NCBI GenBank assembly: GCA_030248135.1
Contig: JASANC010000385.1
Span: 90,658 to 154,657 of the forward strand
Source: Theristus sp. LFF4_11
Lineage: Eukaryota > Nematoda > Chromadorea > Monhysterida > Xyalidae
Direction: 5' to 3'
DNA length: 64,000 nt
Part shown: in pieces, positions 12,594 through 64,000 of the stretch
How positions within the stretch are numbered: position 1 is the stretch's first letter
Layout: each line of letters opens with the position of its first letter
Position numbers and translations under genes: made by a program
The notes under the pieces: model-generated
Databases searched by the model: none
What the model was told of the DNA's origin: nothing
The model's input: only the letters and a program-made list of their open reading frames with translations

Positions 12594-13044
12594 CCCATTA
12601 ACCCCCCCCCCACCATTAATCCCCCCCCCCACCAATAAACCCCCACCCCCGACCAGTTTCTGAATAATCCCCCTACAAATAATCCCCCATGGGGGTTAAT
12701 TGGAAACCTGTTTGAAACACATACCCAGCGAATTCAGTGGCTGAATGCAGTGACATTGGTGAAATTGTGCTACCAAAGGCCCCAAAGAGATGAGTTAATG
12801 GTAATTTCATTACAAAAGGCTGTTACAAAAGGAAATCTCTGTGAAAAGTAAAAGTTTCTGTGACTTTCTTGCCTGCCATGCAAGGTATTTTTGCCATTTT
12901 TCAACAAACCCCCACCCCTAAAATTTTTTTTAAATAAACCCCCCCCCCCCAATAATCCCCCCCCCCCCCCCCACCAATAAACCCCCACACCTAAAAGTCG
13001 CTGACGTATTAATCCCCCATGGGGGTTTATTGGGGGTAATACGG
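12594..13044. repeat. C-rich MITE with CCGTATTACCCCCA termini
   Basis: Inverted ends CCGTATTACCCCCA / TGGGGGTAATACGG are flanked by TA on both sides. Poly-C-rich tandem units (CCCCACCAATAAACCCCC) line both inner ends, with an internal AATCCCCCATGGGGG palindrome. It is the same length and orientation as the copy at 48271-48729, where an empty site proves the TA target duplication. Confidence 0.88.
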
Positions 13045-37339: not shown

Positions 37340-37368
37340 TTCTGACTTTTACATGAGCCCCGAAGGTT

Positions 37369-38585: not shown

Positions 38586-38827
38586 TATCGCGGCCCAGGA
38601 GATCGCGGCCCGGAGTATCGCGGCCGAAGCATCGCGGCCTGAAAGATCGCGGCCTGGACGATCGCGGCCTGAACGATCGCGGCCCGGACGATCGCGGCCT
38701 GGGACGATCGCGGCCTGGGACGATCGCGGCCTGGGACGATCGCGGCCTGGGACGATCGCGGCCTGGGACGATCGCGGCCTGGACGATCGCGGCCTGGGAC
38801 GATCGCGGCCTGGGACGATCGCGGCGT
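38586..38827 (-). repeat. Left terminal minisatellite arm
   Basis: About 17 units of GATCGCGGCCTGGGAC and shorter variants, the reverse complement of the right arm. Confidence 0.92.
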
Positions 38828-40289: not shown

Positions 40290-40556
40290 CTAAGCCTGAG
40301 CCTAAGCCAGGCCGCGATCGTCCCAGGCCGCGATCATCCCAGGCCGCGATCATCCCAGGCCGCGATCGTCCCAGGCCGCGATCGTCCCAGGCCGCGATCA
40401 TCCCAGGCCGCGATCATCCCAGGCCGCGATCGTCCCAGGCCGCGATCGTCCAGGCCGCGATCGTTCAGGCCGCGATCGTCCAGGCCGCGATCTTTCAGGC
40501 CGCGATACTTCGGCCGCGATGCTTCGGCCGCGATCTAATGGGCCGCAATCTAACGC
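40290..40556 (+). repeat. Right terminal minisatellite arm with telomere-like prefix
   Basis: About 17 units of GGCCGCGATCGTCCCA and variants, preceded by CTAAGCCTGAGCCTAAGCC, which includes the same CCTGAG variant hexamer found in the degenerate part of the CTL telomeric arrays. Confidence 0.92.
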
Positions 40557-40561
40557 ACGCC

Positions 40562-40905
40562 ATTTCCACGGCCGATTCGGCCGAAATCGTCACGATTCAG
40601 TGTATAGAGTTGCTCACATAAAAAAACTAACCCAAAATCCGTGATCAGCGCATTGAATTACCCTGGAAAACTTTGTTTTCTTGTTTTTCATTTCTGGACC
40701 GATTTCGCCAATTTCCACGGCCGATTCGGCCGAAATCGTCACGATTCAGTGTATAGAGTTGCTCACGTAAAAAAACTAACCCAAAATCCGTGATCAGCGC
40801 ATTGAATTACCCTGGAAAACTTTGTTTTCTTGTTTTTCATTTCTGGACCGATTTCGCCAATTTCCACGGCTGATTCGCCCGAAATTGTCACGATTCAGTA
40901 TCTAA
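40562..40905. repeat. 148-bp satellite, continuation, about 2.3 copies
   Basis: Same unit as 37369-38575, beginning with the duplicated ATTTCCACGG after the transposon. Confidence 0.9.
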
Positions 40906-40929
40906 AGATGCTCAGGGCAAAAAATTAAT

Positions 40930-41995: not shown

Positions 41996-44900
41996 ATGGG
42001 CTGCTGTGCGTCCGGTCCGTACGGCGAACAGGTTTGGTTGTGCTTTTTCAGTTTCATGAAATCCCCGATAAATCTTCCTTCCTATAAACAATTCTGAATT
42101 TTGTTGACTGACGCAATGTTGACTTATCGGTATAATCAGAACATAAGAAAACTGTTTTACAATGTTTTATTTAGGAGCGCAACAGGCGACCGCATCGCAA
42201 TGAGGCCCCAGCGCTGGTGCGCGATCGCAATTGCACGGACATGTGGGCGTTGTCGTTGTTCGTTATTTACTGGTGCTTCATGGTTGGTGGATGTTTTATT
42301 TGGATATCACTGCTTTATCCCCAAAGAACATGAAGGCACCAATTGCAAAAATTTAGGAAGGTTTTGGATGGTAATTGGTTGGTGTTCCCTTGAAGCCAAA
42401 GCCTCGCCAAATATCAGATAAAATATTTGTTGTATTTTTGAAAATCACCTAACATCAGTGCCACAAACAATTGCTTAGATTCAGCTCTGAGACAAAATTG
42501 AAATTTCACTATGCGTTTCTTTTTGCCTTGATGTAACTTTAAAGGCGTTTACATTTATTTGCACAAATCAGATGTGATATTTTTTTCGCTTCAGATCGCA
42601 ATCGCAGTATTCTCCTGTCTGCACGGCGATCCGTATCGCCTGATCTACGGGACCGATTCGTTCGGCAACGTTTGCGGCAGGGACAATCGATACATTTACG
42701 TGAACAATTCTGGACTGGACTTGTCCGATAGAAAGTTGGTTTTGTCGTGACCTTTGTGGTTAGTTTGCAGCAGTATCCAACGTGAGATGATGAGTGTACG
42801 CCTAAGCCTAAGCCTAAGCCTAAGCCTAAGCCTAAGCCTAAGCCTAAGCCTAAGCCTAAGCCTAAGCCTAAGCCTAAGCCTAAGCCTAAGCCTAAGCCTA
42901 AGCCTAAGCCTAAGCCTAAGCCTAAGCCTAAGCCTAAGCCTAAGCCTAAGCCTAAGCCTAAGCCTAAGCCTAAGCCTAAGCCTAAGCCTAAGCCTAAGCC
43001 TAAGCCTAAGCCTAAGCCTAAGCCTAAGCCTAAGCCTAAGCCTAAGCCTAAGCCTAAGCCTAAGCCTAAGCCTAAGCCTAAGCCTAAGCCTAAGCCTAAA
43101 CCTAAGCCTAAGCCTAAGCCTAAGCCTAAGCCTAAGCCTAAGCCTAAGCCTAAGCCTAAGCCTAAGCCTAAGCCTAAGCCTAAGCCTAAGCCTAAGCCTA
43201 AGCCTAAGCCTAAGCCTAAGCCTAAGCCTAAGCCTAAGCCTAAGCCTAAGCCTAAGCCTAAGCCTAAGCCTAAGCCTAAGCCTAAGCCTAAGCCTGAGCC
43301 TGAGCCTAAGCCTAAGCCTAAGCCTAAGCCTAAGCCTGAGCCTAAGCCTAAGCCTAAGCCTGAGCCTGAGCCTGAGCCTGAGCCTAAGCCTAAGACTAAG
43401 CCGAAGCCTAAGCCGTAGCCTAAGCCGACTAAAACTAAACCTTAAAAAACCCGCCCATTTCACTTGCTGTAATTCTTCTCAGTGATATACCGTATCACCC
43501 ACTATAATCGCAACGAATTCGCAGGTATCTATTCTCGATGGACATCACACGCCCCAGCGACTCACTGTGGATCTGCGTGAAAGAGTGCCCGACTCGGAAT
43601 CTGTACGATCGATCGATGCTGGTTGAATACGCCGCAACTCGAAACGTTGGCTTCTGCTCGTATGAAGTGCCGCTTGAGAAATACGCCGAGCAAGACGAAT
43701 ATCCGTCAAGTAACGCCGGACCGTGTCCGGTGGATAGTGTTTTTGAGAGGTTTGAACGTGATGCGATTTTCTCGAAATAATATCATCTGGAAAATATGTA
43801 GCAAGGCACATCAACACAAAATTGAAGAAACGTGCAGTTTTTTGCCTCTCAGACAATCTCATAGTTGCCTCAGAAACTTTGGCGTGTAAAAGTGAGTTAT
43901 TGGAAACTCAAAGGTTATTATTCGAAAGCCATTGAAAAGCCTCTTTGAGATTTATGCCGATTTGATATAACCGCCAGTCACAGTTCAAGCGGCTCTCAAA
44001 AGCGGTCAATCGCGTTGCGTTATAGCCACGGCCCACGCAGTGATATTTTCGACAATGTGGTGAAACTGAAATCGAAAACTTATTCCATATTTTTCTAGCG
44101 AACCAATCTTGAACTGGTGCATTCCGAAAGTCGCCTCGGCACTTGGAGACTATTTTGTCACTGCCATTTTTCACGCCATAAATTCGGTGGACAAGCTGAA
44201 GTTGGCGTTGTCTGACGTGGCGTTGCTGTGGCCTCAAATGGTCGCGCTGTGCGTTCTCTCGTTAGGTTGGATGGTTTGTTATGTTTGCTTTCGAGTATAA
44301 ATTAAGGTAAAAACAATGCGGTTGACGATACGCAATTGTACTAAATCTGACAGCAAACTGCTACTACGGTATGCGCCCTTAAATGCATCTAAAAAATGTG
44401 TAGCCACAGCTAGCAGCTACAGTCGAACTCACTAAAATGTGGAATCAGCTGATTGGTCGGCCGAGGGGAGGCTGCTCACACTCCGCACCCTTCTTTTTTC
44501 GTGGATCTGGATTCTATTGAATCGTGTTTCTTTTGAATGAGTGTGAATTTCCAGCACCGTTTTCATGCTAAAAATAAACTCAAAGGGTTGGAGAACTGCG
44601 AAATTCAATTTTTTTTATTCAACAGCTCAAAATGCATTTTTTACTGACGACGACGACGACGACGACGTCGTCGCTTCATTTTTACGTGTGAACTGAAAGA
44701 CAAAAGCCTGAAATGAGTGCGCTGTGTAGCCAGCTGAAGGGGTTTCATTCCTAGCTGACCGATCTACATGCGTCCGCAATTAAAAAAAATGCGTTCCGAC
44801 TTCGCGGATGATGACGACACGACGACGACTTTGCTTTCATTTTTTTCATTTTCACCGATTTCAAGTTGTTTTTGGCAAGCTGCTGTGTTCATTTACTTGG

Positions 44901-47900
44901 TGCACGCAGCAAACCATGCACAGCTCACTTCTTTCAGGCTTTTATTTTGCAGTTCACACGCAAAAATTAAGCGACGACGTCGTCGTCGTCATTAAACAAA
45001 AAAATACATTTTTAGTTGAGCTGTGGAATAAAATTTTTCTAAATTTCGCGGTCTCTAACCTTTGAGTTTATTTTTAGCACAAAAAGGGTGCTGGAAATTC
45101 ATAAAAACACGTTTCAATAAAATCCAAATCCACGAAAAAAGAACGGTGCGGAGTGTGAGCAGCCTCCGCTCGGTCGACCAATCAGCTGATTCCACATTTT
45201 AGTGAGTTCAACTGTAGAGCAGTTGACAAAAGTTTATCACGTGACGTCATGAATTTTGCACCAAAACTTACATTGCGTTTCCACACAGCGCAAAATAAAC
45301 TTTTACAAAATGCCATTTCGCCAATAAACATCTCTAGTTTGACGTGTGTGCGAATCATCAAAATGTCAAAATCTTCCAGCGCTCGCTTTGCTCACCGTTC
45401 TGCTGATACGATTCGCGGCCGGTCTGGTGGTGTACGTGATCTTCATCGTCACCATTATTGCGTCTGCCGGTGCGGTGTTGTTGTTGTTCCGTTTCAACCC
45501 AGCATTTGTTTTTTATACACTGATCGGCTAGGCAGCAACTGCTAGGGACACAATGGTCGTTTCCGTGGCTCAGTAGAACAACTGTTTGTCTTTCACGGCA
45601 AGCAACCGGTCGTTGATTGCCCAAAAAGCAACCGGTCTTTGGTTGCCCAAAAGAACAAGTGTGATGATGTTGCCACTTTTATTTTCGAAACACCACACCG
45701 GGCACCCAGGCGCCATGCGGACACCTCTTTTTTGCGTGTCGGGTGAAGTGTAAAAAAGGCTTTTCAAAAACCCCAAACAGGTGTGAAACTCTCCAAAATG
45801 AGTTTATAAAATTCTCGTCTCCAGCCAATCAGCGTTCCGCAATATTCTATTCCAATATACCGCCAATCAGATTCATTCATAATTACCTATCCCTTCACCA
45901 TTGCAGTCGTCTCCGCCCTTCTCTGGTACGGTTTCGTTCGATTGTACCTGTCGAATCAGGCAACACTGCAAAACGAGCAAGCAACGTCCACGATGCAACC
46001 GCTGCGCGACGGCGGTGCGCACGCGATGCGGCTGTTGGTGAAGGACACCAGCAACGAGCACACGCTCGTGATATTCGCGCTCATTGCCACCTTGCTCACG
46101 GTATATGCGCTGTCCGTGGACGCTTTTATTTGCATTTATTTTCTAGTTTTTATTTTTTTTTCGGTTACCCTATTCTCACTTTTCTGGTGATGGCGAGCTT
46201 GCCCCCCTCCCCCGAGTGCTTGACACTGATCAGTATGCGGGACATGGATACCGCTGGGCGCGGGACAGCTAGGCGGACAAGGTCCTTGTTCGGAGGACAT
46301 TTTTATAGCGTGCATAGATCGTTGAAATGTAATCAATGTTGGAAGTTCACTGCGATCATACAAACTTTGGCCGTTGTTGTCGCTGTTGCCGCAGACGAAA
46401 CAGGTTGATCAACAATCGTCGGGGGAACGGTGTTGTTACAGCAATTCACCGCTAGCCGGGTGAATGCTGTTCAACGACCGTCCCAGGGACGGGGACCACT
46501 CAGACGCTGATGCATTGCAACCCCAAAGCCAACACCTCATTGTTACCATCGTCTGTCTTTGTCGTTCAGCTGCTCCTAGTGCTCGTCGTCATCTGCATGT
46601 GGTCGTCCGCTCGTCTCGTCACGGATCTGTTCAGTCACGCCAGCCGCGCCCTCCAAACGATGCCGTGCCTCCTGATGCAACCGCTGTGCACGTTCGCGTT
46701 GTTGTGCGCTGTGTTCGCGTATTGGCTGTTCATCGTGTTGATGCTCGCTACGGCCGGTCGGTTTTGGTTCATGAAATTTTTCTTGTTGTTCATCTTGAGC
46801 GCAAAAAATATTGATTCGTCTCTTCTGAGATCCGATTTGATTTTGATGTTCTTTTTAAAAAGCGAACGAAACGTTCAATAGATATCGCTCGCCAGAAGGT
46901 TATGTTTGCTGAGCAACCAATTTGGCTGCTCAACAAAAAGTGCAACTGTTTTGTTGGTTATTTCATTGTTCTCCACTGAATTTCTTTATATTGTTGGTTA
47001 TTTCATTTTGTTCCGGCACATCATACACGCTGCCGTGAACACAAACCACATTCCCAGTGTATAACCAATAAAAAACCCACCTTGTGTTTTCCAAGTTCCT
47101 CCAACGCAAATAATCGCATCGAATCGTGCCATATACAGATCAACCGAGCGGCAGCCGCGCGAACCTGACCAGCATGGTCAGTCCGGCCGTCGTTGAAATG
47201 CTGATCGTGCGGTATGACCGCCCAACGTGGGTGACGTATTTCTGGTGGGCGCACACGATCGGCTGTCTGTGGACGGCGGAGTTCTTCATCGCCTGTCAGC
47301 AGATGATCGTCGCTGGCTCGGTGGCCATCTGGTATTTCACGAAGTTCGCGTGCTTTTGGTCTTCAGGGTTTTTTTCTTGAGCATCTTGATTATTTCTTGC
47401 TTGTTGGTTGGTTTAGTAAAGATTTTTATGGACATTTTGCGGGCTTTCGCAAAAATATTCTGACCAGCAAAGTACAGGGTGTCCCAGCTAGATGTACAAC
47501 ATTTGTTTTTGTAATTACGCGTGCGTGCGTTGACCAATTTTGATAATTTTTTCACCGTTTGTAGTAAAGACTTCGGGAATTTGTTTGACACTAAAAACGT
47601 TGCGATACGTTGAATATAACCTGACTTATAAGCATTTGAAATAAATGCACACTTTTTCAATTGCCGCCCGCACCGGTGCGCGACTAGCTGGACACTCAGT
47701 TTGACCAGCGCTGGGTCGGCCGCGGTGGGCCAATTGCCTGGCCTGCACATTCGCCTGACACCACAGCGTGCCACTACTAGCTCTGGGGGCTGTAGAGCAC
47801 CGTGTTTATGAGACGCACCCAGCATCCATCGATGAGCTGATTGTGGCCATCGGTGAAACTGTGGGCGAAATCAGCGGCGAAGAGCGCCTGGCAGGCGTTT

Positions 47901-50900
47901 TGGACTTCGACAGACGAATGGATAAACTGATTGAAAGAGAGGGCCAGCACATTCAGGACAATTAGACGTTTGATATTTTGGCACTGTGAGTGTTTGATTT
48001 GCTTTTTTGCTCTCCGCTCGTTCATTTTTTTGTGAAAATGAGGTGTTTTTGTAAAACTGCCATAACTTGTGCCATGTTTGCTGAAACATGAAAGTTCTGG
48101 TGCCAAACAAATTCCCGAAGCCTTTTTTACAAGTGTTGAAAAAATTGTCAACATAGGTTAGCGCACGCGCGCATACTTAAAAAAACAAATGTTGTACATC
48201 TAGCTGGGACACCCTGTACTTTTGTAAAGTTCTTATCTGACGACCGTAAAAGGGGCATTTATCAACCAGTACCGTATTACCCCCATTAAACCCCCCCCAC
48301 CATTAATCCCCCCCACCAATAAACCCCCACCCCCCCCGACCAGTTTCCAAATAATCCCCCCCCACAAATAATCCCCCATGGGGGTTAATTGGAAACCTGT
48401 TTGAAACACATACCCAGCGAATTCAGTGGCTGAATGCAGTGACATTGGTGAAATTGTGCTACCAAAGGCCCCAAATGGATGAGTTAATGGTAATTTCATT
48501 ACAACAGGCTGTTACAAAAGGAAATCTCTGTGAAAAGTAGAAGTTCTGCAACTTTCTTGCCTGTCATGCAAGGTATTTTTGCCATTTTTCAACAAACCCC
48601 ACCCCTAGAAATTTTTGTATAATAAACCCCCCCCCCCCCACCAATAATCCCCCCCCCACCAATAAACTCCCACTCCTAAAAGTCGCTGACGTATTAATCC
48701 CCCATGGGGGTTTATTGGGGGTAATACGGTATTAGTGACCGAGTAACTAACACAGCTGCGCTTCGTCAAAAACTGCTTCAAGAATGCCGCTTAATCATAT
48801 TTTCAGAGACAAAAAGGGCTTCACCTATCCGATCTGCATCAGTTATCGGCAGCTGATTACGAGTCATTTGGGCTCGGTGGCGTTTGGCGCGTTCATCATA
48901 ACGCTCGTGAAACTGCCTCGATTGATCTTGATGTACATGTACAAGAAGTTGGTGGACAGGTTTTTTGTATTTTTGGTCACAGTTACTTGTTTGATTTGCA
49001 AACAAGACAGGCCCGTTAAACTTTATTACCCGGTCGGGGTAAAGTGATCGAAACCGTCGGCCCTCAAACCACTTTGCCCCTAGGTGAGAGAGAGAGAGTG
49101 GGGTTTAGAGTTTGTCCCTTCTCGCGCCGAGAGAATTGGCACACGGGACACTTAGCCGATATCCTGAACACCTTTGCAAAACCACCGCAATCCGTAGTTT
49201 GGTAGCTCCAAGTTACTGGAACGGCTAGAGGGCTACCGATTCAAAAAACATTTTCAACAATGCATGTTCATGATTCCAACGACTTTATCAGTACTTTTTT
49301 TGTAATATTCTTGCCTAAGAAGCGTTTCGGACACGGACAATTTCAAACCACATGCTTAACTTTGAAAAATTTTTGTTTCCAGAATCAAAGAGAGCAAAGT
49401 TCCGTGCCTGCAGACGTGTGCCAAGATGTGCATGTGCTGTTTGTTGTGCATCGAAAAGTGCCTGCGATATCTGCATCATAATGCGTACACGGTGATTGGT
49501 AAGTGGTAGCAGATTGTCTGGTGAGATTGTTTGAGAAAGAGATAAAGTCTTTAAAAAATATATCTTCTGAATTAAAATTCTCTGCTGAAGTTTCCGAAGA
49601 CTGGACACTATTAACGATGCGCATATCACAATCACACAGACAATCCAATGTCAGCAGCGCGCGCGTTCGTCGTGTGTGTGTGCCAGTGTGTTTGTCTGTG
49701 ACCGTGCAACATTGCGGTGTCATATCTAACAAAGCACAATGTGTTCAAACTGGGACTTTCAAGCCTAAACGTGCATGCTTTTCAGCCATCGAAGGCAAAA
49801 GTTTCTGTCCGGCCGCAAAACAGGCCTTTCAAACTCTGGCCAGTAACCCGATCTACGTCGGCTCGATCAACACTGTCGGGGATTTCGTGATTTTTCTGGC
49901 GAAACTCTCCGTTGTTGGGGTGATTGGCGCTGTGGCAGCGTTCTTGTTCAAGGTAAAAAAACGTTGGAAGTTGAATACTTTTGCATCAATTATTGGCTAT
50001 ACTCACTTACGATTTCACTGATTTACCAGTAAATTCGCACAAATTTGCTGCCATATTGGTTAATCAACAAAATGTTGAGTTTAACGGTGGAACGCAAATA
50101 TCTAGATACCTAGTTTGGTGAGCACCTAAAGGCTGGTCACCAAAAAACACGAGCATGCATGGTATACACACATGTGTGCTTTTTTTAAAACAGAAAATAT
50201 ATACCAAAATTTTATACACTTTTAATCTTTAAAACAAAAAGTTTAAAACATCATGTTGAGAAATGTTCATTTTCATGCTGTTTTCATGATTGCTCTGTGT
50301 CGAAGCGTCCTTTCAGAACACGCCTGACGTGCATTTCTGGGCGGTGCCGTTCGCGATCGTCTGCATTTTCGCCTATCTCGTTGCACACTGCTTCTTTACG
50401 GTTTACGAGGTCGGGTGAAGAACCGTTTGGAAAAATGATAATTTGTGAAAACCTGTAACAGGATTTTTTGTAAAATCTAAGACACGTGTTCTTTTCTTCC
50501 GCAGATGGCTATCGACACTTTGTTCCTGTGCTTTGCGGAGGACCAAGATCTGGCCGACACCACAGGGGGCCAATTGTACGCTGACACTGAAATGCAGGTT
50601 GCGTGCGCCCTGTTTTACTTTTCAGTAACTCTTTTGTTCCTTTTTTGTAACTTCTTGCCTTGCACTGCAAATCAGGTAAGTGACAGGGAAACTGAGAAAA
50701 CAGTAGGACATACAGAAACAGTTGAAAACATTGCACTTGTTGAAAGTGACAAGAACATTGCGTGTGAGTGTTGGTGTTGTTGCGTCTGCATCATGTTCCC
50801 TTTGTCGTAGCCTTTTTCAGTCACTGGAGAAAATGTGTATCGCATATGTACAGGGTGTCCCAAAAAAAACATAACAAAAGTAAATGGCTCGTGCGGCCGA

Positions 50901-52265
50901 CTGGTTGCACGTGAAGCCGTGAAATTTGAAACACTTTTAGAACTAAGGAACACATTTTGTGTGTTCAAATTTCATCTCGAAATTCTACTTTTTCAATAAT
51001 ATTTTATTAGAAATACCTAAAAACTCAAAAATCACCTAAATTCAGTTTTTTTCGACTCAGAATAAACATCATTGTCGTCATTGAGAATCTCATCTGGCTG
51101 TGGCACAAGTTCATCGTCAGCTTCATCTTCACTGATGTCATCATGTTCACGCTCACAGTCGTTCAGTTTCCTTTTTCTCGGCTGCTCAAAGTGTTTTCCA
51201 TTGTTCTCAATGAACGCCGACATTCGATGTTTGAAACTGATGATCACTTTCTGGCGCAGCGCCCGATCATCGCTGATTTTTTTGCACACCGCTGCAGTGG
51301 TGGGCGCCGAAAATGTCCCACATTATCCGTCAGATGCCCCCAAACGCAGAAGTCAAAGACTTCATGTCACGACTCCTCTCGGGCCATTCAATTCTGCCCA
51401 TGCGGCCGATCCAGCGGTCACCGAACGACACCGACAGCCACTCGCGCACTTGTTTCAATTTTCCTCTAGACTTATGGGTTTGGGGCACCTGAAGGAAATT
51501 GTGTACCGTTCGGCGCCCAACAGTTTCGACGATTTGAAGAGCAAAATTCGCAGTGGTGTGCAAAAAATCAACGATGATCGGGCGCTGCACCAGAAAGTGC
51601 TCATCAGTTTCGAACATCGAATGTCGGCAATCATTGAGAACAATGAAAAACACATTGAGCAGCTGACAAAAGTGAAACTAAAGGGCCGAGAGGATGAACA
51701 TGATGAGTTCAGTGAAGACGAAGCTGAAGATGATCTTGCGCCACAGCCAGATGAAATTCTCGTTGACGACAATGATGTTTACCCTGAGTCAAAAAACTGA
51801 GTTTAGGTGATTTTTGAGTTTTTACGTATTTCTGCTAAAAAATAATTGAAAAAATAGAATTTCTAGAAAAAAATTTGAACACACAAAATGTGTTCCTTAG
51901 TTCTAAAAGTGTTTCAAATTTCACGGCTTCACGTCTAACCAGTCGGCCACACGAGCCATTTACTTTTGTTATGTTTTTTTTGGGACACCCTGTACTTTAC
52001 GCTTCTGCCTCATTTTTTGTTTTTTGTTTTGTTTTGTTTCACTCGGCATGTTCCTCATACACACTGTTGCAGTTCTTAAACGGCAGTAAAGTATTCTCCG
52101 CTGCTGTGAAGTCCAGCCAACAAAAACCGTTTTTTTGCTGTCTCACAGGATTTCATCTCTCGAACGTTGGAACGCCCCGGCGACCATCGAAAACGCCAGG
52201 CAGAGGTCATCGAAGCGCCGTCACCATCCAGGGGGCAGCGGCGGGCGGTTGCAGTGCAGCTGTGA
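41996..52265 (+). CDS. Choline transporter-like protein (SLC44/CTL family), copy A
   Basis: Multi-pass plasma-membrane protein of the choline/ethanolamine transporter family. Fifteen exons: 41996-42031, 42175-42282, 42595-42734, 43525-43749, 44099-44265, 45380-45469, 45907-46100, 46570-46756, 47139-47343, 48807-48947, 49383-49498, 49786-49952, 50317-50409, 50505-50597, 52149-52265. All phases close: 692 residues, normal for the family. Family blocks: [15 protein letters not shown] (TM1), [115 protein letters not shown]. The last exon encodes a short basic tail ending AVAVQL. Introns hold a telomeric array, a foldback, two Tc1-like elements and a C-rich MITE. Confidence 0.95.
42800..43430 (-). 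repeat. Interstitial telomeric array (TTAGGC)n, about 105 units
   Basis: Perfect GCCTAA hexamers on the plus strand for about 490 bp (one AAACC variant near 43100), then CCTGAG, GACTAAG and CCGAAG variants toward the right, ending in CCGACTAAAACTAAACC. It lies in intron 3 of the CTL gene. The long Leu/Ser and Leu/Arg open frames here are repeat translations. Confidence 0.98.
44420..45214. repeat. Foldback element with CAGTCGAACTC termini and a GAC/GTC core
   Basis: Arms of about 270-280 bp are inverted (CAGTCGAACTCACTAAAATG at the left end, its complement at the right). The arms end inward in GACGACGACGACGACGTCGTCG-type tracts. TA flanks both ends, and copy B has the uninterrupted site AGCAGCTAGAGCAG (about 59560-59573), which proves the 2-bp target duplication. 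Confidence 0.93.
47475..48216 (+). mobile_element. Tc1/mariner-superfamily element
   Basis: Inverted ends CAGGGTGTCCCAGCTAGATG are flanked by TA. Copy B has the empty site AGCAAAGTACTTTTG (about 61829-61843). The interior encodes a broken transposase C-terminus (47670-47965). It lies in intron 9 of CTL copy A. Confidence 0.93.
47670..47965 (+). pseudogene. Tc1/mariner transposase C-terminus, frameshifted
   Basis: One frame reads [24 protein letters not shown], the RWIGRxGPIxWPxRSPDLTP block of DDE-superfamily transposases, and stops at TAG (near 47779). A second frame (47768-47965) continues [20 protein letters not shown] and ends [11 protein letters not shown], the usual transposase tail. 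The N-terminal half is absent. Confidence 0.85.
48271..48729. repeat. C-rich MITE with CCGTATTACCCCCA termini
   Basis: Full copy of the element at 12594-13044 in the same orientation, flanked by TA. Copy B shows the empty site AACCAGTATTAGTGACC (about 61882-61898), so the element inserted at TA. Confidence 0.93.
49015..49240. repeat. Unclassified intronic block present in both CTL copies
   Basis: A relatively GC-rich stretch with (GA)n (GAGAGAGAGAG) and GGTAGCTCCAAGTTACTGG, unlike the surrounding AT-rich intron. It is also at about 62173-62398 in copy B, so it predates the duplication. It may be an old short retroposon, but no tRNA-like head or terminal repeats are visible. Confidence 0.3.
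50851..51992. mobile_element. Head-to-head Tc1/mariner-like foldback element
   Basis: Inverted ends CAGGGTGTCCCAAAAAAAAC are flanked by TA, and the arms extend about 440 bp. Each arm contains the 3' part of the same transposase, in opposite orientation, so the element is an inverted duplication of one 3' half. It lies in the last intron of CTL copy A; the matching site in copy B is just outside the window. Confidence 0.88.
51040..51800. pseudogene. Two inverted transposase C-termini
   Basis: Plus strand, about 51480-51800: [20 protein letters not shown], then [20 protein letters not shown] and an acidic tail with [18 protein letters not shown]. Minus strand, about 51430-51040: [18 protein letters not shown], a stop, then [20 protein letters not shown] and [18 protein letters not shown]. 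Neither has a complete catalytic domain. Confidence 0.82.
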
Positions 52266-53218
52266 TTTCATTGTTTTTGAATTCTTTGAAACATTACACG
52301 TGTCGTTGGTTCGCTCAAACAACGGAAAAATTGAATCAATCCAAGAAAAATTTACTTTATGTCGCGGTTTTTCGCTGTGTTCGTTTTATATCACACCATT
52401 CCCGCACGGATAAACTCACTGATGATCGATCAGTTGACATTGTAGTGTACAATCAGGCTCAGGATTTTCCTTGTTACTGTGCCTGACGAATGCTTGTTCT
52501 ATAGCACATGACGTCGTTTCCGTGGGACAAGTTCGAATATAACACCGAAAACCAGAAAAACTCAAAAAAATTGGTGCACTAAAAAATAGCGCACAGAAAG
52601 AAAATTTTCACCGCATAAACCGTGTGTTTTTTGGGTAATGAATAGGTAATTATCTCTGCTGAAGAGAAGAAATTTGAAAAACGCCGAAACGTGTGCAAAA
52701 CAATTGTGGTTTATTGACTTATTGGTTACAAATCCATCAATAGGAAGAAGGAATTCTGATCAGTGTTATGTTCACAAGAAGTCGGTCAATCGGGCGGTCA
52801 CGTTGAAAAGTAAAAAAAGAAATTAGCGCATCTGAGTTTTTTTGAATGTCTTCTTATCATCTTGAATTTGAAAAATATCCGACTAATGTAATTTTATTCA
52901 ATGTAATTTATTGGGCGGTGAGTGATACATGCGAACAGCGACGACGAAAGCAAAAAAACAACCAAACGGATCGCAACGAACGCACACACACACAAAAAAC
53001 AAACAGAAACGCGTTTGTATAACATAGAATTGTGATCTCGTAATCTGTAATATTTTTAAACATAGGAAAACTATAAAGAATGTCTAAAATGCATATAATA
53101 CAACAAGAAGAATGAACGTTGCTCGAAACAATACTCCGTTTTTTAAAAATGACCCACCAAAACTCTCTCATCTTGATTCTTATTTCACGGTGTGGGAGGT
53201 GAAATCAGCATAACGATC
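52266..53218. other. Intergenic, no gene seen
   Basis: AT-rich spacer between CTL copy A and the next gene, with a short (CA)n tract near 52985. No repeat ends or exon-like stretches were recognised. Confidence 0.4.
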
Positions 53219-55838
53219 ATGTATTCGTTTAAATCCACAAAATTGTTTTTGAACGTTTGGCTTGTGGCTTTCTTATTAACGCAGCCACGTCCGCCGGTCG
53301 AAGCTTGCGGCGGATTTATCTGGCTCGGTAAGAAAGAAAAATTTAAAATCTGCGGTGTATTTATATAATATGTACTGTATTTCATTGCTAGTCAAACTGT
53401 AAAACATGGCATTTGAAACGGTCACGCTGAAAGTACATATAGTCAGTCGTCCTGGATAATTTGCAGTATTAGCTGATTGGTTGCCTGAACATCAGGTTCA
53501 AAAAAGAAATTGGAATGGACATTTTCTTTTTTCTAGCTTTGTAATTTCTATGCGTTTGCTGAGTGTGGGCAGACAGACAGTGAGATTTTGATGGAAAAAT
53601 CTTTTTTGTGATTTATGAGATGAAGACATCAAAAGCAGCGGTTTTTTACGACAAAAACTTTATTTCGTTTTAAAAAGGAGCGACGGCGACGACGACAATT
53701 AAAAACCTGAACTCGCTGTCAAATATTAGCTGCTTTAATTTTTTGATTGAGAAAAACGCTTTGGAGAATTTGTGTGACGTACATTTTATAAAAAGCAGAC
53801 GTGTTTTGCTGTTAATTCCTTTTTCCAGGAACAACGACGGCGACGACGACGACTTTCGTTGTTCTTTCTTTGTCAAATTGACATTTCGTTCCAAAAACTG
53901 TTTTTTTAAATTATATCTGCTGTTTTAACTTCAATTTTAAATTTGAGCGACAATTTCTACAGCAAATTTTTATCCGAAGGAAAACGTCGTCGTCATCAGT
54001 TATCGTTCCTTTTTTTCAAACAAAAAAGAGTTTCTTTTCCATGAAACTTGCTGCTTTTGATTTGTCTGCAACTCACAAATTATCAAATATTATTATTTTA
54101 AATAACAAGATTTTTCCATTAAAAATCTCACTGTTTGACAACGCAAAATACGCGCACAGAAATCTCAATATTCAGATAAAAAAAGAAAAAATTTCTTTTT
54201 TGGACCTGATGTTCAGGCAACCAATCAGCTAATACTACAAATTATCCAGGACGACTATATATGCCAAAAGCCATTCCAAAGTATTTCCATGCAAAAAAAC
54301 TTCATGACATGCCACAATTCACCCATGTCTACCATGAAGTCGTTTACATAATAACATACCATAACATGGTTTACAAAAGAAAAACTGAGAAAATCCAACA
54401 CAGCAGGGGCAGGCTGATTTATCGCAGTACATTTATAGTGTCGGTCTAAATTTCTGGTAATTTTTGCAATTTTGCATCAGGTACGTGTCCGGTGTTGGCT
54501 AACGAAGGCACTGCAGACATTTTCGAGTACTCTCAAGACAGTGGGCACCACGCCGTCGCGCATGGTGAAGTCGTTCGGATTGCGTGCAGCTCACCAACAT
54601 CGTATCTCGAATTGAACGGTGTAAGACAACCTCACGATCTGACTGTGCACTGCAGCAACGGACAGTGGGACGTGCAGAACTTCAATCAGGCCAACTGTAT
54701 TCCGTGTGAGTGCAGTGACAGTCCACACTCTGAGAAAATTCATCCATTTTGAACTGATACGTAACACTACGCGCTGAAAAAACACGTGACCGATTATAGA
54801 CAGTTTTAGATTGATTTTTCACCCATCAATCATTAACCGATAATGACCAAAATTGGTACACGTAATAATAATTAGAAAAAATTGAACTGCCTAATGACTT
54901 TTGAGCCACCCTGTACACGTTAGTTTCTCATGTCTTACTGCTATAGGATAATGCCGCGGGTGACATGGCGGCGAAGTTGGCACAGTGTTGTTGTGATGTT
55001 TCGAGAGTAGCGAGCGAGACTCGACAACTAAAAAGTTGCAGAATTTCTTTCGGGTTTTATCTGGGGAGGGAGGAGACTATTAAAAAAATACCGGTTCTCC
55101 AGTCTGCCAACTGGACACCACTCAGTTTGGGCGTACCGATGGCGGCACCGACTGTTATTTCTCGGCGGCTGCGCGTGCATTCCTGTTGACGCCTCAGCCT
55201 GCCGGTGCGACGTTCACGCTGTCGCAATCGGTTTGTCTCAGTGGTGACGGCACAACATCGTGCGCAACGATGGAGGTCTGCCTTGTGTTTGCGTGTTTCC
55301 TTCTCTTTTTTCCATCATCGAGTGACAATGGCGCAGGCTAAATGAAAAACAATCATGATTGCTCGTTTTTCGCACCATTAACAAAGATGTGAGATGACGT
55401 GCAGTGCCGTGCCGCATACGCATATCAGTATGAACGGGTTGTGTGTTTTGCAACTTAGTAGCAGAAAAGATCAATAAATAAATTTCGCAATTAGTTTTTT
55501 TTGTGCGTACGCACGGACACGACGCTCAAACAATGGCCACGCTAGTTTAGAAACAGTGTCGTGTGTGCTGTCTTAATGCATTACCGACACGATTGGTTCG
55601 TGCACCGGATTCAGAACGTCTGTGCGTTCAAACAAAAAACCAAAGAATGTTTTCGCCTTTAGTGCTGTCTTTTTCAAATCCGCCTCAGGTACTGACCACG
55701 AGCGAAAACGAATACTTCTTATCTGGAACGGACTCAGTGACGGTCACGTGCACGCCACCAATGTTTCAAGTGCCATCGGATGAAAACGGCGCTACACCTT
55801 TGGAAGAACTTGCGTTGATAAATTGTCATGCAGATTAG
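53219..55838 (+). CDS. Small secreted Cys-rich protein with sushi-like domain
   Basis: Four exons, 53219-53327, 54481-54705, 55103-55275, 55689-55838, join in phase to give 218 residues. The N-terminus (STKLFLNVWLVAFLLTQP...VEACGG) is a good signal peptide. Exon 2 has the spacing of a CCP/sushi module: CPVLANEGTAD, GEVVRIACSSPTSYLELNG, LTVHCSNGQWD, ANCIP. Exon 3 adds DTTQFGRTDGGTDCYFSAA and SVCLSGDGTTSC. Exon 4 carries SVTVTCTPPMF and ends INCHAD-TAG. The frame stays coding-like beyond that stop (see 55839-56109). Intron 1 contains a foldback element. Orthology was not recognised. Confidence 0.65.
53455..54255. repeat. Foldback element with GTCGTCCTGG termini
   Basis: Inverted arms begin GTCGTCCTGGATAATTTG and share GTATTAGCTGATTGGTTGCC and ACATCAGGT. 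Flanks are TATA-rich, consistent with a TA target. The interior contains (GAC/GTC) tracts (GACGGCGACGACGACGAC), like the core of 44420-45214, though the termini differ. It lies in intron 1 of the sushi-like gene. Confidence 0.8.
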
Positions 55839-56109
55839 AGTTGCATGTAGACCTCAACATTCAAACTCGAAGATTCTCCAGTCTGTGGCACACAAGAACC
55901 AAACGATCCAGTTATCACCAGAACAGAAAAAACAGAACCGCCAGTCGGAAGACCAAATTCATTGATGCAGCAAGTAGCCACGATGTTGAAACAAAAAGTT
56001 CAAGTATATCTGTTTTTACGCATCATGTTCAATAGAATAAACAAGACAAAACCACCGACAAAACCACGTACTGTACCTGAGACAACGGATCCAAGTGGGA
56101 AACGCTGAG
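55839..56109 (+). other. In-frame continuation beyond the sushi-like gene stop
   Basis: After TAG-AGT-TGC-ATG-TAG the same frame reads TSTFKLEDSPVCGTQEPNDP and VITRTEKTEPPVGRPNS and continues to KTKPPTKPRTVPETTDPSGKR before a TGA at 56106. This Thr/Pro/Lys-rich segment looks like the tail of a secreted nematode protein. It could be joined by splicing from CAA|GTGCCA (about 55770) to CATGTAG|ACC (about 55850), by readthrough, or be decayed coding sequence. Confidence 0.45.
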
Positions 56110-56145
56110 TTTGCGGAAATGCGGACTTCTTGTTGTTTCTGATCA

Positions 56146-56496
56146 CTTGAAAATGGTTGGGAAATTTTTCTGTATCAAGGAAAAGATTTTCGAATATTCA
56201 ATTTTCAACAGATTGCTTCTAAACTCCTTGACTGACCTGGAACATACCGTTTTTGATTCAAGTGAGTTCCAGTTTGGAATTACACGCACGCTCCAAAATT
56301 GTTTTCGCACGTGAGTTTTGGCTCGGGGAACAAAAAGCTTGAATGGGTGACCTCTCGTATTTTTTCCACTCTCTGCTACAACGAAAAAATCGTTGTGGTC
56401 TGAAAAATAGCACAGTTTGTTGATGATCTTAAAAATGAAAATTAGATTATTAAATGTGCGCAGGACAACAGAGGGAGCTAGTTTCAAATCTATCAA
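56146..56496 (-). pseudogene. Non-LTR retrotransposon reverse transcriptase, C-terminal relic
   Basis: The minus-strand frame contains FKIINKLCYFSDHNDFF, NTRGHPFKLFVPRAKTHVRK and FWSVRVIPNWNSL followed by SVKEFRSNLLKI, the pattern at the end of LINE (CR1/Jockey-like) reverse transcriptase ORFs (TRGH..KL..PR...R..FFS.RVI..WN.LP). The rest of ORF2 is not in the window, so it is a 5'-truncated copy. Confidence 0.8.
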
Positions 56497-56791
56497 ACAA
56501 TCGGAATCTGAAAATGAAAATCTATAAAAATCTATGCATCTAAAAAAAATTGTTTTTCAAATGCATAAAATGAGTCGATAAAAAATTAACCATTTTTGCT
56601 CACAATTCTTAAAAATTTCGCTATTTTTAGGTAACATACGCGTTAATACTTGATTTTTAGCGTATTTTAAGCATTGTTTAGCGGTTTTTATCGCTTTTTA
56701 TCGTTTTAGTTATCTATCTATTTAATTTCAAAATTTTGACCGGCCCCCCAAAGCAGTAGCGAAAGTGCGGGGGTGGGGTGGGGGGCGGGGG

Positions 56792-57642
56792 TGGTTAGGG
56801 GGAAAAAATTCCGGATTTTATTAAATTAAAAAAATTAATTCTTTTTACAAGTTAGGTTCGTTCGAAGCGTCTCGTCGAGCTGAGTTCAGCTAGACCATTT
56901 TCAAAACGATCCGAAAAACTATAAGAGCGAAAATCGTGTTTTATTGAAATTTTGTCCATTTCATAGAGGGAAAGTTGCATTTTCAACAGTAAAACCGGAC
57001 AATTTTTGACGTGTACTTGAATATTGAACCGTTCTTAGTTGTTCCTCTTTAGAAAATTACCGAAATTTGACTGTGTTCAAAAATTCCCGTTAGCTGTAGC
57101 TAAGTCGGCAACCCCCGGTCCCCGACACGGTCGCCCCCCCCCCAAGACACTTACTTTCAGGTTCAACCAGCTATGCTATCTGGCACATGGCGAGAGCCCG
57201 CTCTTCAAAACATCGTATCGAAAACACGTACCATGATTTTGCAATCACGTTGCGGGCAACTGACAGACGCAAGTTTAACACGTTAGTTTAGCTTAGCACG
57301 CAAGTTTTAACATGTGGCCATGTTATCGGGTATCTGAAAAACGGTCGTGTGATGTGGTATTGACCAACACCTCCGCTCTAATTGTTTAACAATATATCGC
57401 ACAACTCCATTGTAGACCTATAACATATGCCAATCAACAAGATATCATTTTTATCTCATGGCCTACCGACTGAAAAACATGTTCTAAGTTGCAACAAAAC
57501 GATTTCTGAAACGATATTTCAATTCAGTTAAGTAATTTCAACGCTAAAAATTGAACCTAAAAGTCATCCAAATCGAAAAACATCGATATTTTTTAAAAAT
57601 TTTTTAATTAAAAAAAAATCCGGATCGTTTTTCCCCCTAACC
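56792..57642. repeat. Inverted-repeat element with GGTTAGGGGGAAAAA termini
   Basis: GGTTAGGGGGAAAAAATTCC with ATCCGG-type and AATTAAAAAAATTAA stretches at the left is mirrored at the right by ATCCGGATCG and TTTTTCCCCCTAACC. The interior is AT-rich without ORFs of interest. A TATCTATTTAATTTC...TTTTGACCG stretch just outside the left end recurs near 39030. Confidence 0.5.
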
Positions 57643-58077
57643 CTATTCCGGATGCTCTGCTGAGTTGATTGAGCCATCGATCGTCGAAATCGGCCGAGGA
57701 AATCGTGATCTGGGCGACGTTATGTGTTACGTTATCAGAAGAATGGTCACTGTTAATCATTCGTTAATCAGCAAACATCACAAGATAACCACGAAAAACA
57801 AAAAAAAACTTTATTAACGGCATAAAATCTGTTGGTACCACACCCTATATTCATGCCGACCCAACCCGTTCCATAAATCACACCGTGCGGTGTTTTCATC
57901 GGTGCGGTGTTTTCACCGCTGCGGTGTTTTTTTATACAGAATCGGGTGTGATTGGGTGTACCCCCCCCACCCCCCCTCGTCTTCGGTACTGACCCCCCTC
58001 TAAAATTTGGCAAACACCCCCCCCCCCTCACCAGTACCGTGGGCCCAAAAAGATTTTCGAAGGGGGGGTTTCGAAGT
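57643..58077. other. Junction region left of CTL copy B
   Basis: Contains CGGTGCGGTGTTTT repeats near 57890-57930 and C-rich tracts with a CCGAAGAT-type MITE end (CGTCTTCGGTACTGACCC). No CTL exon 1-3 sequence is present. Homology to copy A starts abruptly at 58078. Confidence 0.5.
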
Positions 58078-58119
58078 GGTTAGTTTGCAGCAGTATCCAA
58101 CGTGAGATGATGAGTGTAC

Positions 58120-58576
58120 GCCTAAGCCTAAGCCTAAGCCTAAGCCTAAGCCTAAGCCTAAGCCTAAGCCTAAGCCTAAGCCTAAGCCTAAGCCTAAGCC
58201 TAAGCCTAAGCCTAAGCCTAAGCCTAAGCCTAAGCCTAAGCCTAAGCCTAAGCCTAAGCCTAAGCCTAAGCCTAAGCCTAAGCCTAAGCCTAAGCCTAAG
58301 CCTAAGCCTAAGCCTAAGCCTAAGCCTAAGCCTAAGCCTAAGCCTAAGCCTAAGCCTAAGCCTAAGTCTAAGCCTAAGCCTAAGCCTAAGCCTAAGCCTA
58401 AGCCTAAGCCTAAGCCTAAGCCTAAGCCTAAGCCTAAGCCTAAGCCTAAGCCTGAGCCTGAGCCTAAGCCTAAGCCTAAGCCTAAGCCTGAGCCTAAGCC
58501 TAAGCCTAAGCCTGAGCCTGAGCCTGAGCCTAAGCCTAAGACTAAGCCGAAGCCTAAGCCGTAGCCTAAGCCGACT
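58120..58576 (-). repeat. Interstitial telomeric array (TTAGGC)n, about 76 units, copy B
   Basis: Same structure as 42800-43430: perfect hexamers, then the same ordered variants (CCTGAG, GACTAAG, CCGAAG, CCGTAG) and the same ending. It is about 175 bp shorter, consistent with repeat-number change after duplication. Confidence 0.98.
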
Positions 58577-58670
58577 AAAACTAAACCTTAAAAAACCCGC
58601 CCATTTCACTTGCTGTAATTCTTCTCAGTGATCTACCGTATCACCCACTATAATCGCAACGAATTCGCAG

Positions 58671-61600
58671 GTATCTATTCTCGATGGACATCACACGCCC
58701 CAGCGACTCACTGTGGATCTGCGTGAAAGAGTGCCCGACTCGGAATCTGTACGATCGATCGATGCTGGTTGAATACGCCGCAACTCGAAACGTTGGCTTC
58801 TGCTCGTATGAAGTGCCGCTTGAGAAATACGCCGAGCAAGACGAATATCCGTCAAGTAACGCCGGACCGTGTCCGGTGGATAGTGTTTTTGAGAGGTTTG
58901 AACGTGATGCGATTTTCTCGAAATAATATCATCTGGAAAATATGTAGCAAGGCACATCAACACAAAATTGAAGAAACGTGCAGTTTTTTGCCTCTCAGAC
59001 AATCTCATAGTTGCCTCAGAAACTTTGGCGTGTAAAAGTGAGTTATTGGAAACTCAAAGGTTATTATTCGAAAGCCATTGAAAAGCCTCTTTGAGATTTA
59101 TGCCGATTTGATATAACCGCCAGTCACAGTTCAAGCGGCTCTCAAAAGCGGTCAATCGCGTTGCGTTATAGCCACGGCCCACGCAGTGATATTTTCGACA
59201 ATGTGGTGAAACTGAAATCGAAAACTTATTCCATATTTTTCTAGCGAACCAATCTTGAACTGGTGCATTCCGAAAGTCGCCTCGGCACTTGGAGACTATT
59301 TTGTCACTGCCATTTTTCACGCCATAAATTCGGTGGACAAGCTGAAGTTGGCGTTGTCTGACGTGGCGTTGCTGTGGCCTCAAATGGTCGCGCTGTGCGT
59401 TCTCTCGTTAGGTTGGATGGTTTGTTATGTTTGCTTTCGAGTATAAATTAAGGTAAAAACAATGCGGTTGACGATACGCAATTGTACTAAATCTGACAGC
59501 AAACTGCTACTACGGTATGCGCCCTTAAATGCATCTAAAAAATGTGTAGCTACAGCTAGCAGCTAGAGCAGTTGACAAAAGTTTATCACGTGACGTCATG
59601 AATTTTGCACCAAAACTTACATTGCGTTTCCACACAGCGCAAAATAAACTTTTACGAAATGCCATTTCGCCAATAAACATCTCGAGTTTGACGTGTGTGC
59701 GAATCATCAAAATGTCAAAATCTTCCAGCGGTCGCTTTGCTCACCGTTCTGCTGATACGATTCGCGGCCGGTCTGGTGGTGTACGTGATCTTCATCGTCA
59801 CCATTATTGCGTCTGCCGGTGCGGTGTTGTTGTTGTTGTTCCGTTTCAACCCAGCATTTGTTTTTTATACACTGATCGGCTAGGCAGCAACTGTTAGGGA
59901 CACAATGGTCGTTTCCGTGGCTCAGTAGAACAACGGTTTGTCTTTCACGGCAAGCAACCGGTCATTGATTGCCCAAAAAGCAACCGGTCTTTGGTTGCCC
60001 AAAAGAACAAGTGCGATGATGTTGCCACTTTTATTTTCGAAACACCACACCGGGCACCCAGCAGGCGCCATGCGGACACCTCTTTTTTGCGTGTCGGGTG
60101 AAGTGTAAAAAAGGCTTTTCAAAAACCCCAAACAGGTGTGAAACTCTCCAAAATGAGTTTATAAAATTCTCGTCTCCAGCCAATCAGCGTTCCGCAATAT
60201 TCTATTCCAATATACCGCCAATCAGATTGATTCATAATTACCTATCCCATCACCATTGCAGTCGTCTCCGCCCTTCTCTGGTACGGTTTCGTTCGATTGT
60301 ACCTGTCGAATCAGGCAACACTGCAAAACGAGCAAGCAACGTCCACGACGCAACCGCTGCGCGACGGCGGTGCGCACGCGATGCGGCTGTTGGTGAAGGA
60401 CACCAGCAACGAGCACACGCTCGTGATATTCGCGCTCATTGCCACCTTGCTCACGGTATATGCGCTGTCCGTGGACGCTTTTATTTGCCTTTATTTTCTA
60501 GTTTTTATTTTTTTTTCGGTTACCCTATTCTCACTTTTTTGGTGATGGCGAGCTTGCCCCCCTCCCCCGAGTGCTTGACACTGATACAGTATGCGGGACA
60601 TGGATACCGCTGGGCGCGGGACAGCTAGGCGGACAAGGTCCTTGTTCGGAGGACATTTTTATAGCGTGCATACCTAGATCGTTGAAATGAAATCAATGTT
60701 GGAAGTTCACTGCGATCATACAAACTTTGGCCGTTGTTGTCGCTGTTGCCGCAGACGAAACAGGTTGATCAACAATCGTCGGGGGAACGTCGTTGTTACA
60801 GCATTTCACCGCTAGCCGGGTTGCACGTGAATGCTGTTCAACGACCGTTCCAGGGACGGGGACCACTCAGACGCTGATGCATTGCAACCCCAAGGCCAAC
60901 ACCTCATTTTCACCATCGTCTGTCTTTGTCGTTCAGCTGCTCCTAGTGCTCGTCGTCATCTGCATGTGGTCGTCCGCTCGTCTCGTCACGGATCTGTTCA
61001 GTCACGCCAGCCGCGCCCTCCAAACGATGCCGTGCCTCCTGATGCAACCGCTGTGCACGTTCGCGTTGTTGTGCGCTGTGTTCGCGTATTGGCTGTTCAT
61101 CGTGTTGATGCTCGCTACGGCCGGTCGGTTTTGGTTCATGAAATTTTTCTTGTTGTTCATCTTGAGCGCAAAAAATTGATTCGTCTCTTCTGAGATCCGA
61201 TTTGATTTTGATGTTCTTTTTAAAAAGCGAACGAAACGTTCAATAGATATCGCTCGCCAGAAGGTTATGTTTGCTGAGCAACCAATTTGGCTGCTTAACA
61301 AAAAGTTCAACCGTTTTGTTGGTGATTTCATTGTTCTCCACTAAATTTCTCCATTGTTGGTTATTTCATTTTGTTCAGGCACATCATACACGCTGCCGTG
61401 AACACAAACCACATTCCCAGTGTATAACCAATAAAACACCCACCTTGTGTTTTCCAAGTTCCTCCAACGCAAATTAATCGCGTCGAATCGTGCCATGCAG
61501 ATCAACCGAGCGGCAGCCGCGCGAACCTGACCAGCATGGTCAGTCCGGCCGTCGTTGAAATGCTGATCGTGCGGTATGACCGCCCAACGTGGGTGACGTA

Positions 61601-63765
61601 TTTCTGGTGGGCGCACACGATCGGCTGTCTGTGGACGGCGGAGTTCTTCATCGCCTGTCAGCAGATGATCGTCGCTGGCTCGGTGGCCATCTGGTATTTC
61701 ACGAAGTTCGCGTGCTTTTGGTCTTCAGGGTTTTTTTCTTGAGCATCTTGATTATTTCTTGCTTGTTGGTTGGTTTAATAAAGATTTTTATGGACATTTT
61801 GCGGGCTTTCGCAAAAATATTCTGACCAGCAAAGTACTTTTGTAAAGTTCTTATCTGACGACCGTAAAAGGGGCATTTATCAACCAGTATTAGTGACCGA
61901 GTAACTAACACAGCTGCGCTTCGTCAAAAACTGCTTCATGAATGCCGCTTAATCATATTTTCAGAGACAAAAAGGGCTTCACCTATCCGATCTGCATCAG
62001 TTATCGGCAGCTGATTACGAGTCATTTGGGCTCGGTGGCGTTTGGCGCGTTCATCATAACGCTCGTGAAACTGCCTCGATTGATCTTGATGTACATGTAC
62101 AAGAAGTTGGTGGACAGGTTTTTTGTATTTTTGGTCACAGTTACTTGTTTGATTTGCAAACAAGACAGGCCCGTTAAACTTTATTACCCGGTCGGGGTAA
62201 AGTGATCGAAACCGTCGGCCCTCAAACCACTTTGCCCCTAGGTGAGAGAGAGAGAGTGGGGTTTAGAGTTTGTCCCTTCTCGCGCCGAGAGAATTGGCAC
62301 ACGGGACACTTAGCCGATATCCTGAACACCTTTGCAAAACCACCGCAATCCGTAGTTTGGTAGCTCCAAGTTACTGGAACGGCTAGAGGGCTACCGATTC
62401 AAAAAACATTTTCAACAATGCATGCTCATGATTCCAACGACTTTATCAGTACTTTTTTTGTAATATTCTTGCCTAAGAAGCGTTTCGGATACGGACAATT
62501 TCAAACCACACGCTTCACTTTAAAAATTTTTTGTTTCCAGAATCAAAGAGAGCAAAGTTCCGTGCCTGCAGACGTGTGCCAAGATGTGCATGTGCTGTTT
62601 GTTGTGCATCGAAAAGTGCCTGCGATATCTGCATCATAATGCGTACACGGTGATTGGTAAGTGGTAACTGATTGTCTGGTGAGATTGTTTGAGAAAGAGA
62701 TAAAGTCTTTAAAAAATATATCTTCTGAATTAAAATTCTCTGCTGAAGTTTCCGAAGACTGGACACTATTAACGTTGCCCATATCACAATCACACAGACA
62801 ATCCAATGTCAGCAGCGCGCGCGTTCGTCGTGTGTGTGTGCCAGTGTGTTTGTCTGTGACCGTGCAACATTGCGGTGTCATATCTATCAAGCACAGTGTT
62901 TTCGAACTAAGACTTTCAAGCCTAAACGTGCATGCTTTTCAGCCATCGAAGGCAAAAGTTTCTGTCCGGCCGCAAAACAGGCCTTTCAAACTCTGGCCAG
63001 TAACCCGATCTACGTCGGCTCGATCAACACTGTCGGGGATTTCGTGATTTTTCTGGCGAAACTCTCCGTTGTTGGGGTGATTGGCGCTGTGGCAGCGTTC
63101 TTGTTCAAGGTAAAAAAACGTTGGAAGTTGAATACTTTTGCATCCATTATTGGCTATACTCACTTACGAGTTCACTGATTTACCAGTAAATTCGCACAAA
63201 TTTGCTGCCATATTGGTTAATCAACAAAATGTTGAGTTTAACGGTGGAACGCAAATATCTAGATACCTAGTTTGGTGAGCACCTATAGGCTGGTCACCAA
63301 AAAACACGAGCATGCATGGTATATGCTATATGTATTAATACACACATGTGGGCTTTTTTAAAACAGAAACCAAAATTTTATATACTTTTAATCTTTAAAA
63401 CAAAAAGTTCAAAACATCATGTTGAGAAATGTTCATTTTCATGCTGTCTTCATGATTGCTCTGTGTCGAAGCGTCCTTTCAGAACACGCCTGACGTGCAT
63501 TTCTGGGCGGTGCCGTTCGCGATCGTCTGCATTTTCGCCTATCTCGTTGCGCACTGCTTCTTTACGGTTTACGAGGTCGGGTGAAGAACCGTTTGGAAAA
63601 ATGATAATTTGTGAAAACCTGTGAAACATGATTTTTTGTAAAATCTAAGACACGTGTTCTTTTCTTCCGCAGATGGCTATCGACACTTTGTTCCTGTGCT
63701 TTGCGGAGGACCAAGATCTGGCCGACACCACAGGGGGCCAATTGTACGCTGACAATGAAATGCAG
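58671..63765 (+). CDS. Choline transporter-like protein, copy B, 5'-truncated
   Basis: Exons equivalent to 4-14 of copy A are intact and in frame: 58671-58895, 59245-59411, 59729-59818, 60262-60455, 60937-61123, 61501-61705, 61965-62105, 62541-62656, 62943-63109, 63483-63575, 63673-63765. Exons 1-3, with the start codon and first membrane segment, are absent upstream; the last exon would lie beyond the window. Coding differences from copy A are few (for example Met to Thr in STTQPLRDGG, Thr to Asn in YADNEMQ), and no stop or frameshift was seen. Without a new first exon and promoter this is a gene fragment. It could also be a misplaced second haplotype. Confidence 0.85.
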
Positions 63766-64000
63766 GTTGCGTGCGCCCTGTTTTACTTTTCAGTAACTTT
63801 TTCGTTCCTTTTTTGTAACTTCTTGCCTTGCACTGCAAATCAGGAAAGTGGCAGAGAAACTGAGAAAACAGTAGGACATACAGAAACAGTTGAAAACATT
63901 GCACTTGTTGAAAGTGACAAAAGAACATTGCGTGTTGGTGTTGTTGCGTCTGCATCATGTTCCCTCTGTCGTAGCTTTTTTCAGTCACTGGAGAAAATGT

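Follow-up and report, generated by a model that had tools for sequence, protein, structure and literature searches.

Two diverged versions of a choline-transporter-like gene on one nematode contig: a possible false tandem of alleles

A complete choline-transporter-like (CTL) gene (copy A) and a second, incomplete version of it (copy B) occupy one contig of the Theristus sp. LFF4_11 assembly (Table 1). A and B are most probably diverged versions of one gene, carried as haplotypes by the sequenced animal or population, and we see an even chance that their tandem placement is false, two haplotypes of one CTL gene having been laid out one behind the other. A preliminary description of this DNA had taken A and B for a tandem pair. 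This is not established, given that B is 5'-truncated, terminates with the contig, is joined through repeats and has exons far more conserved than its introns; the possibility that the same description had set against its own reading, namely that the assembler joined two haplotypes, has at least the same likelihood as a genuine duplication.

The window, i.e. the whole stretch of 64,000 nucleotides that was analysed, covers bases 90658-154657 of contig C227, and the assembly searched comprises 159.4 Mb in 3744 contigs. Comparison of the window with itself showed that 42756-50836 of A recurs as copy B, the homology starting at 42756 and 58076, respectively. Self-BLAST gave 98.8% identity for A 42959-44422 against B 58117-59568, 97.5% for A 45215-47475 against B 59564-61837, and 96.7% for A 48729-50836 against B 61887-64000. 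The near identity described earlier is thus borne out at 96.7-98.8% in the main blocks, with slightly shifted limits (previously 42757-50845 for A and 58078 for the start of B). Pairwise alignment places three long insertions in A alone. B starts inside an intron and is devoid of exons 1-3 (of 15 predicted) and of the ATG, while its exon 15 lies beyond the end of the contig: window base 64000 is base 154657 of C227, the last one, which cuts B short and leaves its right end unassembled. To speak of a duplicated CTL locus is an overstatement, as B shows only exons 4-14 of 15. Across these exons, the splice sites of B are kept and its reading frame stays open over 563 codons.

Table 1. Positions of the features in the window.
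Feature	Position	Strand	Description
Copy A, complete CTL (CTL1/SLC44A1-type) gene	41996..52265	+	15 predicted exons, placed by hand, GT/AG intron ends
Copy A, predicted exons 1-5	41996-42031, 42175-42282, 42595-42734, 43525-43749, 44099-44265	+	
Copy A, predicted exons 6-10	45380-45469, 45907-46100, 46570-46756, 47139-47343, 48807-48959	+	
Copy A, predicted exons 11-15	49383-49498, 49786-49952, 50317-50409, 50505-50597, 52149-52265	+	
(GCCTAA)n = (TTAGGC)n array in A	42800..43426	+	intron 3; 104.5 units; variant units mainly at right end
Element 1	44420-45214	.	795 bp; ~300-bp inverted repeats 82% alike; intronic; absent from B
Element 2	47475-48216	.	742 bp; CAGGGTGTCCC ends; ~120-bp inverted repeats 87% alike; intronic; absent from B
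Element 3	48272-48729	.	458 bp; CCGTATTACCCCC ends; 26-bp inverted repeats; intronic; absent from B
Element 4	50851-51992	.	1142 bp; CAGGGTGTCCC ends; ~448-bp inverted repeats 89% alike; TA target duplication; intronic in A
Repeat patchwork directly upstream of B	56530..58069	+	1.5 kb, almost wholly dispersed repeats
Junction into B	58069..58077	+	repeat, then 6-bp filler TTCGAA (58070-58075), then intron-3 sequence
Copy B	58076..64000	+	exons 4-14 only (58671-63765); begins within intron 3; stops at contig end
(GCCTAA)n array in B	58120..58572	+	75.5 units; 174 bp = 29 units shorter than that of A; variant pattern largely common to A

The predicted product of copy A has 696 amino acids and a single, terminal stop. 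Without its first 12 residues, the protein matches PF04515 in Pfam at E=1e-91 (308 bits against a cut-off of 26.9), and its best sequence match is CTL1 of Priapulus caudatus at 41% (the best of 38 matches, with 7999 candidates scored), followed mostly by proteins from bivalves. A 581-amino-acid part of it matches two chains of Choline transporter-like protein 1 with structures in the PDB (7wwb_A and 9qu3_A; E of about 1e-93, query residues 8-570). With PF04515 above the cut-off and a long similarity to CTL1 (SLC44A1), the gene of copy A is classed by sequence as an SLC44 choline transporter-like gene. Its N-terminal MGCC is presumably a further resemblance to SLC44A1, and nothing notable sets the gene apart from SLC44A1 other than the telomere-type array in its third intron. 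Upstream of the gene, 34410-34799 is an exon from a gene resembling flavin-containing monooxygenases (PF00743, 1.4e-22); two upstream frames had no Pfam match above the cut-off. Arrays of a 149-bp satellite are found at 37367-38575 (8.1 copies) and 40558-40928 (2.5 copies), with GC-rich 16-bp minisatellites beside them (38587-38825 and 40307-40535). The same minisatellite type occurs at 1269-1449, in a stretch 93% identical to 39577-40561. Between A and B, 53219-55840 holds a predicted gene for a small secreted cysteine-containing protein (exons joined by hand; no Pfam match above the cut-off). Scans of the whole window for tRNAs and Rfam families came back empty. A search of the assembly for COX1 likewise gave no match; the control genomes that did respond, 8 of 14, are all prokaryotes.

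The relationship of A to B is reflected in how their differences are distributed. The two copies were aligned with separate counts for introns and exons, as the preliminary description had proposed, counting past the telomere-type array and leaving the insertions out. Exons 4-14 differ at 4 of 1690 sites and introns at 75 of 3700 (Fisher p 1e-8), and indel events number 0 in exons and 14 in introns; when differences within 12 bases are merged, 4 exon and 51 intron events remain (p 3e-5). Had B been unconstrained, 17.1 exon differences would be expected (P of 4 or fewer = 0.0002), or 11.6 after merging (P = 0.01), and the more diverged part alone gives 15.5 (P = 0.0006) and 10.4 (P = 0.02), respectively. 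More drift would be expected of a truncated copy; with conserved exons and an open frame in B, the two versions fit alleles better than an old truncated duplicate, and they most probably diverged as alleles. Synonymous sites are, however, also low in divergence (1 difference in about 395 sites versus 2.0% in introns), so that the contrast between exons and introns is not cleanly one of protein-level selection. Together with the fact that three of the four exon changes are replacements, this low synonymous divergence counts against selection as a clean explanation. The ratio dN/dS was considered as a test of selection and is uninformative with 1 synonymous and 3 replacement changes. Intron divergence is uneven along the gene, at 2 of 634 sites (0.3%) from 43427 to 45250 and 73 of 3066 (2.4%) from there to 50836. 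Given this jump and the unusually similar synonymous sites, the two versions may have undergone conversion or recombination.

A is the complete gene, with at least three TA-targeted insertions that B does not have. If A and B are haplotypes, the assembly path would have crossed from one to the other by way of the repeats at 56.5-58.07 kb, thereby putting B 7 kb downstream of A, and the contig would have stopped where B was about to rejoin sequence already used. Such a false join is permitted by the 1.5 kb before B, which are nearly all dispersed repeat, and the end of B, which coincides with the end of the contig and falls 14 bp short of the site of element 4, is a likely branch point of two versions. 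For the vertebrate assemblies that it covered, one study traces false duplications mainly to diverged haplotypes (Ko et al., 2022; PMC9516828). Our case resembles the heterotype false duplications of that account in that one locus with two versions a few percent apart has been kept as if paralogous; it differs in lying within one gapless contig and in its unusual junction.

Several observations count against a false join. The contig runs from A to B without a single N. The left flank of A and the repeat at the junction have no overlap that could account for a simple assembler merge and, as the filler looks like an end-joining scar, the haplotype of B would itself need a rearrangement at this point. 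Moreover, no haplotype copy was found on another contig with the pieces searched, and the assembly thus does not look full of retained haplotypes. In favour of a false join, two pieces of the CTL gene matched strongly at A and B only (the second also gave scattered matches below about 115 bases), and the upstream segment 41670-42755, which includes exon 3, matched itself only (40 of 1595 candidates scored). The same holds for 52030-53360 (40 of 305 candidates scored), where a gap or collapse could also give a single copy. Since the CTL pieces and the flanks match nowhere else among the candidates scored, no alternative location for B emerged.

A real tandem duplication of about 15.3 kb (42756-58069) is quite possible, though we rate it somewhat below an even chance. 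End joining would have connected a break within the repeats to another that lies 44 bp from the telomere-type array. The two breaks may have been on unlike homologous chromosomes, in which case A and B would already have differed when they became linked. This explanation needs one novel junction of the kind that tandem duplication makes, where the right end of a unit meets the left end of the unit that follows, and this junction is present in the contig; the gene's 5' part is found once among the candidates scored. The TTCGAA filler repeats sequence 14 bases upstream, and in trials with random 6-mers a match on one or the other strand turned up within about 30 bases in 2.5% of cases (0.2% when both neighbouring bases are included), and the filler is possibly templated. 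Templated fillers have been described for polymerase-theta end joining in Caenorhabditis elegans, as have tandem duplications that arise by this route in helq-1 mutants (PMC8654963). The breakpoint may therefore be real on some chromosome, although the link between its A side and its B side passes through repeats. On the other hand, only the left end of B is visible, as the contig ends within B; a second copy of 52030-53360 is missing among the candidates scored; and the conservation of the exons speaks against B having existed independently in truncated form for long. Should the duplication be real, B, judged by its missing 5' part, would probably not be expressed as a transporter. Two other origins were considered. 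A natural transposon end at the junction was tested and rejected, for 7 of the 7 other copies whose match reaches 58065-58069 share a continuation that is missing from the window. Recombination between two copies of one repeat may have produced a tandem copy but is not simpler, because A has no repeat at 42756 and exchange between unlike homologs would be needed.

The intact and conserved exons of B could also be taken to mean that the duplication is old and that both copies are under selection, with B exons spliced, for example, to first exons common to both copies and supplying another version of the 3' half. We think this very unlikely, since B is devoid of an ATG and three exons and a further predicted gene separates A from B, so that an unusual gene structure would be required.

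The two telomere-type arrays were absent from the preliminary description. Both start 44 bp inside the sequence shared by A and B, that is, inside the breakpoint, and both are internal in C227. The repeat unit is abundant, eight exact TTAGGC units (48 bases) occurring 3172 + 3566 times in the assembly when overlapping matches are counted, and eight TTAGGG units zero times. Long arrays of the TTAGGC type are also found, among the matches listed, at 10740-12832 of contig C16, starting 10.7 kb into that contig. According to one review, (TTAGGC)n caps most nematode chromosomes, and 1,229 internal tracts are counted in C. elegans (PMC9071541). Internal telomere-type arrays have been reported to raise rearrangement rates in yeast (PMC11626172), and the position of the breakpoint beside an array of this class is in keeping with a real duplication. 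Were breaks spread uniformly over the gene, about 7% of them would hit the array or come as near to it as 44 bp, and the closeness of the two is only suggestive. One could go further and regard the intronic array as a break-prone site that seeded an end-joined tandem duplication, leaving two same-strand arrays separated by about 14.7 kb and enclosing unique DNA. By analogy, this arrangement would be similar to the TALT of C. elegans, where DNA between internal (TTAGGC)n tracts is amplified and such an array-flanked unit can serve as a template for telomere maintenance (PMC9071541). In contrast to TALT, there is no evidence that the unit in the window serves at chromosome ends, and we hold this scenario to be highly improbable.

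The introns of A hold four elements, each with the TA target duplication and terminal inverted repeats of a TA-targeted inverted-repeat DNA transposon (Tc1/mariner type). The target duplications flank element 1 at 44418-44419 and 45215-45216, element 2 at 47473-47474 and 48217-48218, and element 3 at 48270-48271 and 48730-48731. At all three sites B has a single TA and zero extra bases, in agreement with the filled and uninterrupted sites reported earlier; the site of element 4 falls just past the end of B, where B is not assembled. The ends of the elements are well fixed by these filled and empty sites: the boundaries previously given for elements 1 and 2 stand, confirmed by the ends of relatives elsewhere, and element 3 starts at 48272 rather than 48271. 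Element 1 has two full-length, TA-flanked relatives (L049 and L052) among 63 loci compared. Besides the window copy, elements 2 and 4 each have at least 39 additional matches over the full length, of which in either case one falls 1 base short, with 40 of 125 and 40 of 382 candidates scored, respectively. Element 3 has a 92% relative within the window at 12582-13048. Their probable closest counterparts are non-autonomous Tc1/mariner-like inverted-repeat elements, with which they share many copies, ends of the type CAGGGTGTCCC or CAGT, terminal inverted repeats and the TA target duplication; Pfam found no transposase domain in a single short frame from each of elements 2 and 4. Given that the families have full-length or close relatives elsewhere, insertion into A is the simple reading, and the full-length relatives of elements 1 and 2 support the earlier view that the elements moved in the lineage of A after its separation from B. 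Precise excision from B, leaving it clean, was formally allowed by the preliminary description and is the least probable of the explanations, as it needs three footprint-free events, and insertion into A is simpler given full-length copies of such families elsewhere.

If A and B are alleles, the differences in transposon presence between them are probably of an ordinary kind, and the locus would provide clean polymorphic insertion sites by which the ends of three element families are fixed. It would also be a warning that tandem copies at the contig ends of this assembly may be false. If, instead, the duplication is real, an end-joined rearrangement beside an internal telomere array would offer a natural example of such an array as a breakpoint.
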